Shown here one piece after another: positions 19,280 to 58,208 of a stretch of DNA of 64,000 bases. Every line of letters begins with the position of its first letter. Within the stretch, counting starts at the first letter, position 1. The translations under genes were made by a program, and so were the position numbers. The notes under the pieces are model-generated. The model saw only the letters and a list, made by a program, of their open reading frames with translations, had not been told where the DNA came from and did not search any database. The stretch lies in assembly GCA_913057775.1 (NCBI GenBank), contig CAJXOG010000004.1, positions 1 to 64,000 of the forward strand, read 5' to 3'. Source of the DNA: an uncultured Fodinibius sp. Lineage in GTDB: Bacteria; Bacteroidota; Rhodothermia; Balneolales; Balneolaceae.

Positions 19280-20464
19280 TTAATACTGTGGAATCGACTC
19301 GTCAACCTTCTCTGACCATGCAAGAATTCCGCCCTTGAGGTTATAGAGATTATCAAAGTCGTATTCTTCTTGAAGCTTATTGATGGCTTTTGCACTACGA
19401 ACTCCGCTTCTGCAATGGACAACCACTTTTTTATCACGGCTGATTTTATCGGTCTTATTAAGTACGGTATCCAGTGGAATAAGCTCACCGCCCATTTCAG
19501 CAATCTCCACTTCGTATGGTTCTCGTACGTCGATGAGTTGTACCTCTTCCCCGGAATCCAGCCATGACTGGTACTGCTCAACAGTAACTTCGGGTACCTC
19601 TGATTTGCTTTCCTTTTGCTCTCCGTTAGTGGAGGGAATCCCACAGAATGCTTCGTAATCGATTAGTTCTGTAATTTCTGGGTTTTCGCCCCGCAGCGGG
19701 TTGTCCTCATTCTTAGTGACATTTACTTTTCGGGTGCTGAAATCCTGGGCATCAAACAGAAACAACTCCCCTGAAAGTGGCTGACCAATACCGGTAATAA
19801 TTTTAATAACTTCGCTGGCTTGCAGGCAACCAATAATACCGGGTAATACCCCCAGCACACCGGCTTCTGCACAGTCTGGAACTAACCCGGGAGGGGGCGG
19901 CTCGGGAAACAGGTCGCGGTAATTGGGGCCGCGATTTTCTTCTTCGTCCACATAATTGAATACCGAAAGCTGTCCCTCGAATTGAAAGATAGAGCCGTGG
20001 ACATTCGGTTTATCCAGCATCACGCAGGCATCATTAATAAGATAGCGTGTGGGAAAGTTATCTGTACCGTCGGCTACCACATCATACTGGTCAAGGATCT
20101 CCAGTGCATTTTCGCTGGTTAGCCTAGTTTCGTGTATTTGAATATTGATGTGAGGATTAATTTCCTGCAGACGTTCTTTAGCTACCTCCACTTTGGAACG
20201 GCCAACATCTGAAGAACCAAACAGGATTTGCCGGTGTAGATTGCTAGCCTCAATCTTATCAAAATCAACAATGCCTATGGTGCCAACCCCTGCCGCAGCC
20301 AGATACTGCAGCATCGGGGCTCCGAGTCCGCCGGTTCCCACGGCTACAACTTTGGCAGCTTTGAGCTTCTTTTGTCCCTCCATTCCAAATTCTGGAATGG
20401 AAAGGTGGCGGCTGTAATGACCAAGTTCATCATTTGAAAAGTCGATGTCTTTCCATGTATTCAT
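19280..20464 (-). CDS. moeZ: MoeZ-type E1 adenylyltransferase/sulfurtransferase
   Basis: 394 residues: ThiF/MoeB E1 domain (about 1-270) plus C-terminal rhodanese (about 295-390). The E1 part has the ATP loop AVGTGGLGAPML, IVDFDKIEASNLHRQ and the DCAEAGVLG loop Cys. The MoeB zinc cysteines are replaced (RDLFPEP; no CPxCG), as in actinobacterial MoeZ, and the linker ITELIDYEAFCG also fits that type. The rhodanese active-site Cys is in VVHCRSGVRSA. It should adenylate the C-terminal glycine of the carrier encoded just upstream and transfer sulfur to make a thiocarboxylate. It is the last gene of the cysM-mec-carrier-moeZ set, 47 bases after the carrier. Confidence 0.9.
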   Translation of the reverse strand: MNTWKDIDFSNDELGHYSRHLSIPEFGMEGQKKLKAAKVVAVGTGGLGAPMLQYLAAAGVGTIGIVDFDKIEASNLHRQILFGSSDVGRSKVEVAKERLQEINPHINIQIHETRLTSENALEILDQYDVVADGTDNFPTRYLINDACVMLDKPNVHGSIFQFEGQLSVFNYVDEEENRGPNYRDLFPEPPPPGLVPDCAEAGVLGVLPGIIGCLQASEVIKIITGIGQPLSGELFLFDAQDFSTRKVNVTKNEDNPLRGENPEITELIDYEAFCGIPSTNGEQKESKSEVPEVTVEQYQSWLDSGEEVQLIDVREPYEVEIAEMGGELIPLDTVLNKTDKISRDKKVVVHCRSGVRSAKAINKLQEEYDFDNLYNLKGGILAWSEKVDESIPQY

Positions 20465-20511: not shown

Positions 20512-20802
20512 CTACAAAGGTAGATGATAACATCCTCCTGCAATGGCCGGTACGATACTAATTTCGGTATCAGCTTTGAGCTCAGTAGTATCATCATCGG
20601 CGGGATTTACTTCTTCGTCACCGATATAAATTTTAATATACGACCGGACATTACCGTTATCATCGAGCATATTTTCTTTTACTCCGGGATATTCATTTAC
20701 AAACTGATCGATTGCATCAGACAACGTCTGTTTATCGGTAGTGAAATCCCGGTTTTGGTCGGTAAATTTTCGTAATGGGGTTGGGATAATAATCTTAGCC
20801 AT
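20512..20802 (-). CDS. cysO: CysO/MoaD/ThiS-like sulfur carrier with a C-terminal tail after Gly-Gly
   Basis: 96 residues, beta-grasp fold. The start AKIIIPTPLRKF, the middle IKIYIGDEEVN and the end SIVPAIAGG match CysO-type carriers. Mature carriers end exactly in Gly-Gly, whose carboxylate becomes a thiocarboxylate. Here Gly89-Gly90 is followed by six more residues (CYHLPL) before the stop, so the protein as encoded could not be activated until the tail is removed. The gene just upstream encodes a JAMM protease; its TAA overlaps this ATG by one base (TAATG), implying coupled translation. The MoeZ-type activator follows. Role: sulfur donor for cysteine synthesis by the neighbouring CysM-like enzyme. 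Confidence 0.88.
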   Translation of the reverse strand: MAKIIIPTPLRKFTDQNRDFTTDKQTLSDAIDQFVNEYPGVKENMLDDNGNVRSYIKIYIGDEEVNPADDDTTELKADTEISIVPAIAGGCYHLPL

Positions 20803-21257
20803 TATACTCGTGTTTTAGATTTTTGAGTTGAATATTCTGTTATTTCGATCTTCTCCTCGTCAAATTGCCGTTCTTTGTTGAGTCGCCATGAAGTTGTGTC
20901 AACGACCTCTCCATCTTGTACAGAAATAATGATGTAGGAAAACCACGGCATGGCTACTTCCCGATCGTGTTCGGATGGTGTGGCCGGGTGATCTGGATGC
21001 GAGTGATACACTCCAAGTAGAGTTAACCCATGGTCGTCGGCATATTTTTCTGCTTTCTGATAGTCTTTCGGATCAACTTGAAAGCGCCGTCGCTGATCGC
21101 CTTCTTTGCTATTTTCCACTTCCCAAACTAGTTGAATTTGACGGTTTTCATTTTCTATTCCGAAGAAAAAGCCGCAGCATTCATTCGGATAGTCCGCCTC
21201 GGCATGGCGATGTATTTTACTCAGCGTATCCCGGTCGATTTCTAATTTAGTACTCAT
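20802..21257 (-). CDS. mec: JAMM/MPN (M67) metalloprotease, Mec-like
   Basis: 151 residues. The JAMM zinc signature is intact: an upstream Glu in PNECCGFFFG (about residue 25), then the HSHPDHPATPSEHD block (about residues 86-99) giving His-x-His-Pro...Ser-x-x-Asp. In Mycobacterium the homologous Mec+ releases cysteine from CysO-Cys; in other systems such as QbsD it trims residues after the Gly-Gly of a carrier. Here both jobs are plausible because the carrier has a tail. It lies between cysM (six-base gap) and the carrier gene (one-base overlap). Confidence 0.9.
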   Translation of the reverse strand: MSTKLEIDRDTLSKIHRHAEADYPNECCGFFFGIENENRQIQLVWEVENSKEGDQRRRFQVDPKDYQKAEKYADDHGLTLLGVYHSHPDHPATPSEHDREVAMPWFSYIIISVQDGEVVDTTSWRLNKERQFDEEKIEITEYSTQKSKTRV

Positions 21258-21263
21258 ATTTAT

Positions 21264-22208
21264 CTAGATTATTTGTGTTAGAGTTTCCCCGTATTTGCTT
21301 CCGTCATCGGGAAATATGGTTACAATTGTTCCCTCATCAATTTCTTTAGCCAACTGAAGAGCACCAATCAGGTTTGCTGCTGCAGAAGGACTTAGTAGCA
21401 GTCCTTCATTTCGGGCTGTTTTAGGAATCAACTCGTAGGCTGACTCAGTGCTAACCTCCCTAATTTCATTAGGAAGGGTATCGTCATAAATATCGGGGAC
21501 AATAGCTGTTTCTAGATGCTTCCATCCCTCCAGACCATGCATGGCGATATCCGGCTGTAGAGCAGTAAGTTGTATTTCAGGATTAAATTCTTTGAGTTGT
21601 TTTCCCGTGCCACAGAAAGTACCCGTAGTTCCGAGTCCGGCAATAAAGTGCGTAATACAACCCTCTGTTTGTTCAATAATTTCGGGACCGGTAGTGTGGT
21701 AATGGGCTTTCCAGTTGCTGGAGTTACTATACTGGTCGGCGTAATAATATTTGTCGGGATTATTTTCGTACAGAGTTTTTGCCACTTCTTGAGCTTCGTC
21801 GGTGCCGCCGCCCCGGGAGGTCAGATGCAGATTTACACCAAGCGATTTCAGAATATCTTTACGTTCATCCGATGCATTTTCCGGAAGACATAATGTCATA
21901 GAGATTCCCAAATGTGCAGCTATATGAGCATAGGCAATACCCGTATTTCCACTGCTGGCGTCGAGCAAATGCTTGCCTCTCGATAATTCTTTACGTTGGA
22001 TGGCGTCATAAATAATTTGATATGCTGGGCGTGACTTCACACTGCTACCCAATTGCTGCCATTCCAATTTTGCATAGATAGTTACATTCTTATTTGGATT
22101 GAGATTTGAAATTGGGAATAAAGGAGTGTTACCAATAAAGTTGCCGAGCCGATCGACTTTGTCAGCCAAGGTGTATTTAGTTTGTTCTTTCAGTTTAGGA
22201 GTCTTCAT
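21264..22208 (-). CDS. cysM: CysM-like PLP-dependent cysteine synthase
   Basis: 314 residues, fold type II PLP enzyme. The PLP lysine lies in GSSVKSRPAYQI (about residue 58), the substrate loop in ASSGNTGIAYAH, and the phosphate-binding glycine loop in GLGTTGTFCGTG (about 193-204). In this operon it should add the carrier thiocarboxylate to an activated serine (O-phosphoserine in the mycobacterial case), giving carrier-Cys, which the adjacent JAMM protease hydrolyses. First gene of the operon; no Shine-Dalgarno is visible. A Cys-rich leader ORF and a hairpin lie upstream, suggesting attenuation by cysteine supply. Confidence 0.9.
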   Translation of the reverse strand: MKTPKLKEQTKYTLADKVDRLGNFIGNTPLFPISNLNPNKNVTIYAKLEWQQLGSSVKSRPAYQIIYDAIQRKELSRGKHLLDASSGNTGIAYAHIAAHLGISMTLCLPENASDERKDILKSLGVNLHLTSRGGGTDEAQEVAKTLYENNPDKYYYADQYSNSSNWKAHYHTTGPEIIEQTEGCITHFIAGLGTTGTFCGTGKQLKEFNPEIQLTALQPDIAMHGLEGWKHLETAIVPDIYDDTLPNEIREVSTESAYELIPKTARNEGLLLSPSAAANLIGALQLAKEIDEGTIVTIFPDDGSKYGETLTQII

Positions 22209-22240
22209 AACGAAAAAGAGATTATCGGGACGAAATATTT

Positions 22241-22264
22241 AGGTCAAACGAAGTCGTTTAACCT
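22241..22264 (-). promoter_or_regulatory. Hairpin between Cys leader and cysM
   Basis: Read on the minus strand, AGGTTAAACGA...TCGTTTGACCT is an eleven-base inverted repeat with one G-U pair, centred about 45 bases before the cysM start and about 75 bases after the Cys-leader stop. It is not followed by a clean T-run, so it may block ribosome access or be part of an alternative fold rather than a standard terminator. A smaller CCGTT/AACGG hairpin sits at 22304-22320, just after the leader. Confidence 0.45.
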
Positions 22265-22329
22265 TTAGAATTCGCTAAATTGCCGCTTAAGTTTGAGAAG
22301 AGAGCCGTTCTTATTAAACGGTAGGAAAC

Positions 22330-22410
22330 TTAGCTACAACAACAGCAACACACACCACAACAATAGTGAGCAAAGAGAGGTGAAAAGAATGTGTTGGTTG
22401 CTATTGTCAA
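22330..22410 (-). CDS. Predicted Cys-rich leader peptide of the cysM operon
   Basis: A short frame ends in ...HYCCGVCCCCCS-stop: seven cysteine codons in the last ten, on the same strand as cysM and 121 bases before its start. The frame extends upstream as far as 22521 with no ATG; I take the nearest in-frame start-like codon, TTG at 22410, giving 26 residues, but the true start is uncertain. Ribosomes would stall at the Cys run when charged Cys-tRNA is scarce. Cys-rich uORFs are known to act this way before cysteine genes in mycobacteria. The upstream end is insulated by a terminator at 22519-22550. Inference from position and composition; no homologue was checked. Confidence 0.6.
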   Translation of the reverse strand: MTIATNTFFSPLFAHYCCGVCCCCCS

Positions 22411-22518
22411 AATGGTAGTGACTTGGAAAATTTCTTTGAATGCTAAATTTAAGGATTTTTTATCTTCATACCAGAAAACGCAAACGGAGAATGATAGCTT
22501 GGCGTTCCAATTTGCTTT

Positions 22519-22550
22519 CAAAAAAAGTTGTCAGGTTAATTCGCCTGACA
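22519..22550 (-). terminator. Intrinsic terminator of the OsmC-like gene
   Basis: Minus-strand stem TGTCAGG / CCTGACA with a GCGAATTAA-type loop and a T7 tract (A-run 22520-22526). It lies directly after the OsmC-like stop and separates that gene from the cysteine leader. Confidence 0.85.
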
Positions 22551-22557
22551 GAATCAC

Positions 22558-22974
22558 TTATGCAGATTTTATTTCGTAACTGTAAGAAATTTCAGATCCC
22601 TTTTCCAAGGCTTTGGAGACTGAGCAATATTTTTCTAGGGATAGGTTAATAGCTCGTTCGACTTTTTTATCTTCCAGATCGCCGGTAAAAATAAATTTCA
22701 GCCGGATCGTTTTAAATTCTGAATAAGTTCCGGCAGATTGTTTGTCACCATCCACAATTACTTGTAGATCTTCCAGCGGTTGTTTCTGCTTTTCCAGAAT
22801 TCCGATAATATCAATGGCACTGCATCCGCCAATACCTGCAAGCAATAATTGCATTGGACTGAATCCTCCTTCAATTCCTCCTATTTCGGTTTTCCCGTCC
22901 ATGCGAATTTTACCGCCCTCCTCATTTTGGGCTTCCATGTGGAGATCTTGAAGATGATCGATCGTGATTTTCAT
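22558..22974 (-). CDS. OsmC-family protein (YhfA-like)
   Basis: 138 residues. OsmC fold with GGFSPMQLLLAGIGGCSAIDII (the first redox Cys lies in GGCSA, about residue 54) and a second Cys in LEKYCSVSKALEKG (about residue 118). The Cys pair fits thiol peroxide/hydroperoxide reductases of the OsmC/Ohr group; the short N-terminus fits the YhfA subgroup. A candidate promoter (TTTG, 19 bases, TACTTTAT) lies about 40 bases upstream. Its placement next to the cysteine operon may reflect shared thiol metabolism, but a terminator separates them. Confidence 0.88.
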   Translation of the reverse strand: MKITIDHLQDLHMEAQNEEGGKIRMDGKTEIGGIEGGFSPMQLLLAGIGGCSAIDIIGILEKQKQPLEDLQVIVDGDKQSAGTYSEFKTIRLKFIFTGDLEDKKVERAINLSLEKYCSVSKALEKGSEISYSYEIKSA

Positions 22975-56753: not shown

Positions 56754-58208
56754 TTAATTCACGATTTTATAATCCGTGCCTTCGGGGCTGTCCATCAGCT
56801 TGATATCCAACTCTTCGAGGCGGTCACGGATAGTATCCGAGAGTTCAAAATTCTTTTCATGACGCGCGTTATTACGGATATTAATAAGCAACTCAATAAG
56901 CTGTTTGGTTTTATCATCACCGGCAGAAGAATCGCCTTTTTGCGGCCAAAGTCCCAGCACGCCATCTACAAAGTTTTTCAGAAATTCTTTAATATCGCCA
57001 ATATTTCCCGGGATATCCCCACTGTTAATTTGTTTACGGATGCTTTTCAGTTCCTCAAAAAGAACGGCAATTGCCTGCGCCGTATTGAAGTCGTCATTGA
57101 GTTTACTTTCCAGTGAATTTTTCAGTGTTTCCAGATCATAAGCATCAGCAGAACCATCCTCTGCATTGGTAATAGTGTTAATCATTTCTTGCAGGCTGCG
57201 CAGCCCGTTTTCGGCACCGGATAGGGCATCCTCAGAAAAATCAGTGGTACTACGATAGTGACTCTGGAGTAAAAAGAATCGGATGATTTGTGGATCCCAT
57301 GCGCGATTCAGTAGATCATGATCGCCGGAGAAAAACTCATGAAGCGAGATAGCGTTGCCCAACGATTTACCCATCTTTTGTCCCTCAAGGGTAACCATAT
57401 TGTTGTGCATCCAGTAGTTAGTAAACGGTTTGTTGAAAGCGCCCTCACTCTGAGCGATCTCACATTCGTGATGCGGAAACTGATTGTCCATGCCGCCGCC
57501 GTGAATATCAAAATGTTCGCCCAGGTACTTAGTTGACATTGCCGAGCACTCCACGTGCCAGCCCGGATAGCCTTTGCCCCAGGGCGATGGCCACTTCATT
57601 ATATGTCCGTCATCAGCTTTCTTCCAGAGTGCAAAATCTTCGGGCGAACGTTTATCGCTGGCCGTCTCGATGCGGGCCCCACTTTCCTGATCTTCTACAT
57701 CCCGGCCGCTAAGCTTACCGTAGTCTTCATCCGAAGAGACATCAAAATAGACGTTACCGTCGGTTTCGTAGGCATGGCCATTTTCAAGCAGTTTCTTAAC
57801 CATCTCGATCTGCTCGATGATGTGTCCCGTAGCGCGGGGAGAAATATCCGGTCGCTGAACACCCAATGCATCCATATCGCGGAAATAGTTATAGGTATAT
57901 TTTTCAGCAATCTCCATGGGCTCCAGCTTTTCGATGGCGGCCTGTTTTTCCAGCTTATCCTCACCCTGATCGGCATCGTCGGTCAAGTGTCCCACATCCG
58001 TGATATTTTGGACGTAGCGAACGTTATATCCCAAATAACGGAGGTATCGGATCACCACATCAAATGAGACATAACTTTTGGCATGTCCCAGGTGGGGATC
58101 TCCATACACCGTAGGTCCACAAACGTAGATGCCTACAAAGCCCTCTTTGATGGGTTTGAATTCCTCTTTTTCGCGGGATAGCGTATTATAAATATGTAAT
58201 TTATCCAT
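56754..58208 (-). CDS. cysS: Cysteinyl-tRNA synthetase
   Basis: 484 residues. Zinc/Cys in YVCGPTVYGDPHLGHAKS (first Cys about residue 30; HIGH-like HLGH), WHVECSAMS with the second Cys, GGGMDNQFPHHECE with the remaining zinc ligands, and KMGKSLGN as KMSKS. The C-terminal helical domain ends at DRLEELDIKLMDS. The product charges the tRNA that the Cys leader of the cysM operon would monitor. Promoter match 50 bases upstream. Confidence 0.97.
   Translation of the reverse strand: MDKLHIYNTLSREKEEFKPIKEGFVGIYVCGPTVYGDPHLGHAKSYVSFDVVIRYLRYLGYNVRYVQNITDVGHLTDDADQGEDKLEKQAAIEKLEPMEIAEKYTYNYFRDMDALGVQRPDISPRATGHIIEQIEMVKKLLENGHAYETDGNVYFDVSSDEDYGKLSGRDVEDQESGARIETASDKRSPEDFALWKKADDGHIMKWPSPWGKGYPGWHVECSAMSTKYLGEHFDIHGGGMDNQFPHHECEIAQSEGAFNKPFTNYWMHNNMVTLEGQKMGKSLGNAISLHEFFSGDHDLLNRAWDPQIIRFFLLQSHYRSTTDFSEDALSGAENGLRSLQEMINTITNAEDGSADAYDLETLKNSLESKLNDDFNTAQAIAVLFEELKSIRKQINSGDIPGNIGDIKEFLKNFVDGVLGLWPQKGDSSAGDDKTKQLIELLINIRNNARHEKNFELSDTIRDRLEELDIKLMDSPEGTDYKIVN

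Follow-up and report, generated by a model that had tools for sequence, protein, structure and literature searches.

What does a short reading frame that ends in a run of cysteine codons do directly ahead of an operon headed by a cysteine synthase gene? The question is raised by a 64,000-nucleotide stretch of DNA from an uncultured Fodinibius sp. of the order Balneolales (GenBank assembly GCA_913057775.1, contig CAJXOG010000004.1, positions 1 to 64,000; hereafter the window). A first-pass annotation had described a frame on the cysM strand with seven Cys codons among its last ten, two hairpins behind it, a terminator just upstream and an operon of the content cysM-mec-cysO-moeZ, and had proposed that ribosome stalling during a shortage of Cys-tRNA raises expression of the operon. 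We re-examined the locus and its counterparts in related genomes.

The leader and its surroundings in the window

The elements that had been described are all present, and the Cys-codon leader before cysM is a confirmed observation (Table 1). By nucleotide sequence and translation alike, the frame ends in ...HYCCGVCCCCCS-stop, with the stop codon ending at 22330, and the two hairpins stand between it and cysM, the first gene of an operon with the content claimed. The upstream terminator belongs to an OsmC-family gene and separates that gene from the leader.

Table 1. Features of the cysM leader region and operon in the window
Feature	Coordinates	Strand	Remarks
moeZ-like gene	19280..20464	-	ThiF and rhodanese domains
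cysO-like gene	20512..20802	-	ThiS/MoaD sulfur carrier; product ends ...AGGCYHLPL
mec-like gene	20802..21257	-	JAB/MPN metalloprotease
cysM	21264..22208	-	cysteine synthase (PLP enzyme); first operon gene
Spacer, leader stop to cysM	22209..22329	-	121 nt; C 22%, G 15%; candidate Rho loading region
Hairpin H2, AGGTTAAACG-ACTT-CGTTTGACCT	22241..22264	-	no T-run behind; sequence
Hairpin H1, CCGTTTAA (22321-22314) pairing with TTAAGCGG (22290-22283)	22283..22321	-	alternative to small hairpin; weak here, shuffle P=0.10
Small hairpin, CCGTT-TAATAAG-AACGG	22305..22321	-	sequence
Leader ORF, MTIATNTFFSPLFAHYCCGVCCCCCS-stop	22330..22410	-	26 codons, TTG start; lines up with TTG or ATG starts of 15 orthologs
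Cys-codon block	22333..22362	-	7 Cys codons in last 10; five consecutive at 22350-22336
Candidate -7 element, TAAATTTA	22444..22451	-	Bacteroidota-type promoter; consensus match only; 41 nt upstream of leader start
Intrinsic terminator of OsmC-family gene, TGTCAGG...CCTGACA and T-run	22519..22550 (approx.)	-	read directly
OsmC-family gene with own terminator	22558-22974		upstream of leader

A mechanical ORF call would begin the frame at a TTG at 22521; comparison with orthologs favours the TTG at 22410, a position occupied by ATG in six of the 15 orthologs, and this TTG has no Shine-Dalgarno sequence. The Cys block is not a product of chance, since none of 3000 dinucleotide shuffles of the window's upstream region gave five Cys in six codons within a short start-to-stop ORF. 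The genome to which the window belongs has 31 sites with at least four Cys codons; among the 30 that were inspected, the leader is the sole short intergenic frame ahead of a same-strand gene, no second intergenic Cys leader was seen, and nearly all other sites lie within or opposite larger ORFs.

The candidate -7 element predicts a transcript start near 22438 and a short 5' UTR, and similar elements (TAAATTTA, TAACTTTA, TATCTTTG) stand 41-59 nt 5' of the leader start in several orthologs of the order. Neither the small hairpin nor H2 appears to be an ordinary intrinsic terminator, as no T-run follows either of them in the window sequence. H1 is the positional counterpart of a covarying stem that follows the Cys run in orthologs. 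As a separate observation on the operon, the tail of the CysO-like carrier past its di-glycine starts with Cys (20512-20541, minus strand); it would need trimming, perhaps by the adjoining JAB protease.

Conservation within and beyond Balneolales

A protein search of 129 genomes of the order yielded 15 clear cysM orthologs (at least 60% identity), the window's included. If the leader were idle, related genomes might keep cysM and lose the in-frame Cys run; all 15 keep both, and the hairpin directly after the run is likewise kept. Each ortholog has a short ORF that ends with 5-9 Cys codons and stops 86-180 nt before cysM, and the leader start is an aligned TTG or ATG in every case. The remainder of the peptide shows little conservation. 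Two cultured strains, F. roseus DSM 21986 and F. sediminis DSM 21194, have the leader. The H1 stem begins 1-17 nt after the block, exceeds shuffles at P<=0.02 in 11 of 15 orthologs and, in the alignment fold of the order, has covarying arms (TTACCGG/CCGGTAA, TTACCGA/TCGGTAA, AGGTTACCAG/TTGGTAACCT, AGCGTTTG/CAAACGCT) around a pyrimidine-rich loop of mostly 16-29 nt. In the order, the 110 nt before cysM carry a C>G skew of 0.35+-0.09, compared with 0.03+-0.14 at paralogs; the window's spacer, at about 0.19, is among the weakest in this respect. A pattern search of the order for Cys runs elsewhere than at cysM returned mostly the reverse strands of Gln-rich genes.

We then considered 106 further cysM upstream regions from the Bacteroidota group, taken from GTDB contigs and from phylum and class samples, and scored a leader where at least four Cys fell in six codons inside a short start-to-stop ORF. 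Such a leader is present in 63 of these 106 non-Balneolales orthologs (36/49, 6/19 and 21/38 in the three samples), counts that do not represent independent events, as the wider samples overlap in lineages, their loci have common ancestry, and likeness to the query guided part of the choice. Among controls, dinucleotide shuffles gave 0.1-0.3%, the reverse strand none, and the upstream regions of cysteine synthase paralogs 0/16; for cysM of other phyla the figure was 2/27. Where a locus extends far enough to reveal it, the gene order cysM-mec-cysO-moeZ is nearly always retained with the leader. In the Rhodothermia leaders, other codons often stand between the Cys codons (e.g., MFFPLHMHCCCCMVACCC, MRACFCTCSCCC), which argues for selection of in-frame codons and not for a TGY microsatellite.

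Two side observations concern the wider survey. Three Acidobacteriota cysM loci (L125, L144 and L145) have Cys-rich short ORFs closely upstream (e.g., MNYKASTNCYATIDTRCCCCC). A contig labelled as a Rhodopirellula sp. MAG (L097) carries a flavobacterial-type operon and leader and is probably mis-binned.

Termination and antitermination outside Balneolales

The relatives outside the order offer a well-known way of coupling such a leader to expression. Of the 63 non-Balneolales leaders, 60 have an intrinsic terminator after the Cys block and ahead of cysM, versus 13% of controls in which the downstream part was shuffled. A segment able to pair with the 5' arm of the terminator stands out from shuffles (mean z -2.2, 58 cases); it begins within the leader ORF in 57 of the 58, with its midpoint at a median of 18 nt past the last Cys codon. 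This position after the Cys codons predicts antitermination, and read-through, on stalling. A ribosome that has moved past the Cys codons would cover the segment and let the terminator form, while one stalled at the early Cys codons would leave the segment free to build the antiterminator. The arrangement, as read from sequence, is that of textbook Cys-codon attenuation, and L086 is typical of it (TGTTGTTGTTGCTGT-ACCATTCCCTTGCGGAAAGGC...GCCTTTCCG-TTT-CGGGAAGGCTTTTTT). Eight loci (L069, L076, L082, L085, L096, L108, L114 and L232) have two Cys-rich ORFs in series before cysM, and five of them have a terminator of its own after each ORF, forming tandem attenuators.

Leaders of a similar kind may not be confined to cysM. 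In a pattern search, a Chitinophagaceae-type genome proved to carry the leader MFFLSHTCCCCCCC 63 nt upstream of cysS, and nine more of 30 Chitinophagaceae cysS upstream regions contain a short ORF in which three or more Cys fall in eight codons and which ends 59-82 nt before cysS (e.g., MKPIYITCCCCC, MILSSKYCCCCCC). This suggests that, in Chitinophagaceae, cysteinyl-tRNA synthetase too is under the control of Cys-codon leaders. No Cys leader precedes cysS in any of 12 Fodinibius genomes, nor is there one upstream of the window's own cysS (56823-58199). For reference, the loci with a cysS leader are L238/L266, L267-L269, L272-L274, L277, L278 and L283, whose ORFs have 3-7 Cys codons at their end or close to it.

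How the leader might act in Fodinibius

In Balneolales, a terminator-like hairpin with a T-run occurs in one of the 15 orthologs, which is about the chance level, and is absent in the window; H1, though its arms covary in the order, faces no terminator with which it could compete. Given this lack of an intrinsic terminator, our best guess, held tentatively and at slightly less than even odds, is that Rho terminates transcription within the C-rich, G-poor spacer and that H1, which begins right after the Cys codons, gates this step. The genome encodes a protein with a Rho RNA-binding domain, and placing a ribosome at the leader stop moves the predicted accessibility of the spacer from 0.55 to 0.58 (13/15), a small effect. 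The C>G bias taken alone would be poor evidence for Rho.

The same sensor might instead work by translational attenuation, with the Cys run or the spacer pairing with the cysM start region and blocking initiation unless a ribosome stalls, as has been reported for mycobacteria. Balneolales resemble mycobacteria in having no terminator (PMC1262725), and isolated cases of pairing between the Cys run and the neighbourhood of the cysM start can be found (CAGCAACA in L014, AACAATAATA in L010). We consider this route unlikely. Across the orthologs the pairing does not rise above shuffles (mean z -0.5; 1/15 below -2), and the predicted accessibility of the cysM start is unchanged when a ribosome stalls (0.54 to 0.55). 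On these folding predictions, a general mechanism in which the Cys run pairs with the start of cysM is not supported. The absence of both signals argues against an output of the mycobacterial type and favours Rho together with H1.

Less probable still is that H1 or H2 acts as an unrecognised intrinsic terminator that has no U-tract, so that classical attenuation would hold in Balneolales too. The two hairpins after the window's leader would fit such a residue, as would the CysM tree, in which the Balneolales form two groups nested among mostly terminator-bearing Bacteroidia. No hairpin with a T-run is found in 14 of the 15 orthologs, whereas the adjoining OsmC terminator has one. The nesting in the tree points to a sensor that was kept and a terminator that was lost, the loss perhaps following a move of the operon from one lineage to another. 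In that tree Balneolales CysM sits with Bacteroidia, away from the other Rhodothermia of its own class, a placement that suggests that the operon was transferred across lineages.

A probable cysteine sensor and its alternatives

Whatever the output, we accept cysteine sensing with high confidence. We put the probability at roughly 0.87 that the 26-codon ORF encodes a leader peptide and that its seven Cys codons gauge charged Cys-tRNA and control cysM-mec-cysO-moeZ in cis. As long as cysteine suffices, translation would proceed past the Cys block as far as the stop codon and the operon's expression would be curtailed; when cysteine is short, the ribosome would stall on the Cys codons, the RNA downstream would refold and the operon would be expressed. 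The proposal of a stalling sensor is supported at the level of sequence, by conservation in 15/15 orthologs of the order and by the terminator and antiterminator geometry of most relatives outside it. Conservation across genomes supports the sensor, the frame in which it is read, the place where it lies and its link to the operon. In Fodinibius, both the transcription and translation of the leader and the direction of its response are points that we infer.

Cys-rich peptides can bind metals, and the product of the leader might be a functional microprotein with a metal- or redox-binding role in place of a sensor. We regard this as very improbable, as the peptides are unrelated outside the Cys block, the number and spacing of their Cys vary, and the block adjoins terminators and antiterminators. 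A chance or functionless TGY repeat, of the sort that occurs elsewhere as the reverse strand of Gln-rich genes, is hardly credible, being already contradicted by comparative data: position-specific conservation in the whole order and in 63 of the 106 other orthologs, its rarity in shuffles, and the interspersed Cys codons of Rhodothermia.

On a broader scale, we lean somewhat towards viewing the Cys-codon leader as a widespread regulator of CysO-type cysteine operons across the Bacteroidota group whose outputs are interchangeable: some leaders would act through intrinsic termination, some through attenuators in tandem, and those of Balneolales through a terminator-free and probably Rho-based output that took the terminator's place without loss of the Cys sensor. 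With cysS included in some Chitinophagaceae, this would amount to a small cysteine regulon read by the ribosome. The sensing of cysteine supply in Bacteroidota is little described in the papers searched, and ribosomal sensing through Cys codons, known mainly from Actinobacteria, would be widespread in another large group. The case can be aligned and tested in many genomes, including those of cultured Fodinibius and Reichenbachiella. As the sensor has been kept while the terminator was gained or lost and the leader sometimes doubled, transcriptional and terminator-free outputs can be compared directly, in bacteria that rarely use Shine-Dalgarno sequences.

Comparison with known systems

Like the classical attenuators of the trp, his and ilv leaders, the window's leader has regulatory codons for the product of its own operon, and the non-Balneolales relatives also share the competing downstream segments; the differences are that the amino acid is cysteine and that the window's lineage has no terminator. 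Leader-peptide attenuators that depend on Rho are known from the tnaC and mgtL type. These resemble the Fodinibius arrangement in having a leader ORF and then a C-rich stretch before the gene, with a different sensed signal and with an action of Rho that we infer here.

The closest counterparts are the polycysteine leaders of Actinobacteria, which are also short ORFs with a run of Cys codons near the stop, ahead of genes for cysteine metabolism. Seliverstov et al. 2005 (PMC1262725) predicted such leaders, with no terminator, for mycobacteria, Propionibacterium and Bifidobacterium, and those of Mycobacterium smegmatis have been shown to be cysteine-responsive attenuators (Canestrari et al. 2020, as cited in PMC9031893 and PMC13236596). 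The mycobacterial precedent invoked in the first-pass annotation can thus be traced in the literature (PMC1262725, PMC9031893). Its author knew of no description in this phylum, and the open-licence papers that we searched contain none for a Cys leader in Bacteroidota or Balneolota; they mention leader peptides of Flavobacterium and Bacteroides only in general terms, including attenuation of amino-acid operons in Flavobacterium (PMC9723704). Rfam returned nothing other than tRNAs for the window, 17 relatives and, at a loose threshold, the leader. Mycobacteria and Fodinibius share a leader that has no intrinsic terminator. The Fodinibius leader differs from the actinobacterial ones in its phylum, in its operon (cysM-mec-cysO-moeZ) and in the conserved hairpin directly after the Cys block, and most of its Bacteroidota relatives use intrinsic terminators. 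In contrast to the leaderless transcripts of mycobacteria, that of the window is apparently not leaderless, judging by the consensus match of its -7-like element 41 nt upstream of the start; by sequence, two distant orthologs (L018 and L019) could be.

A further parallel is the uORFC-8-2 motif, a leader with two Cys codons predicted before cysS in Rhodobacterales (PMC8632094). It has Cys codons in a leader ORF, a terminator stem and a predicted ribosome-mediated attenuation in common with the leaders described here. The motif belongs to Alphaproteobacteria, has two Cys codons and precedes cysS, whereas the present leaders have 4-9 Cys codons and precede cysM, extending to cysS only in some Chitinophagaceae.
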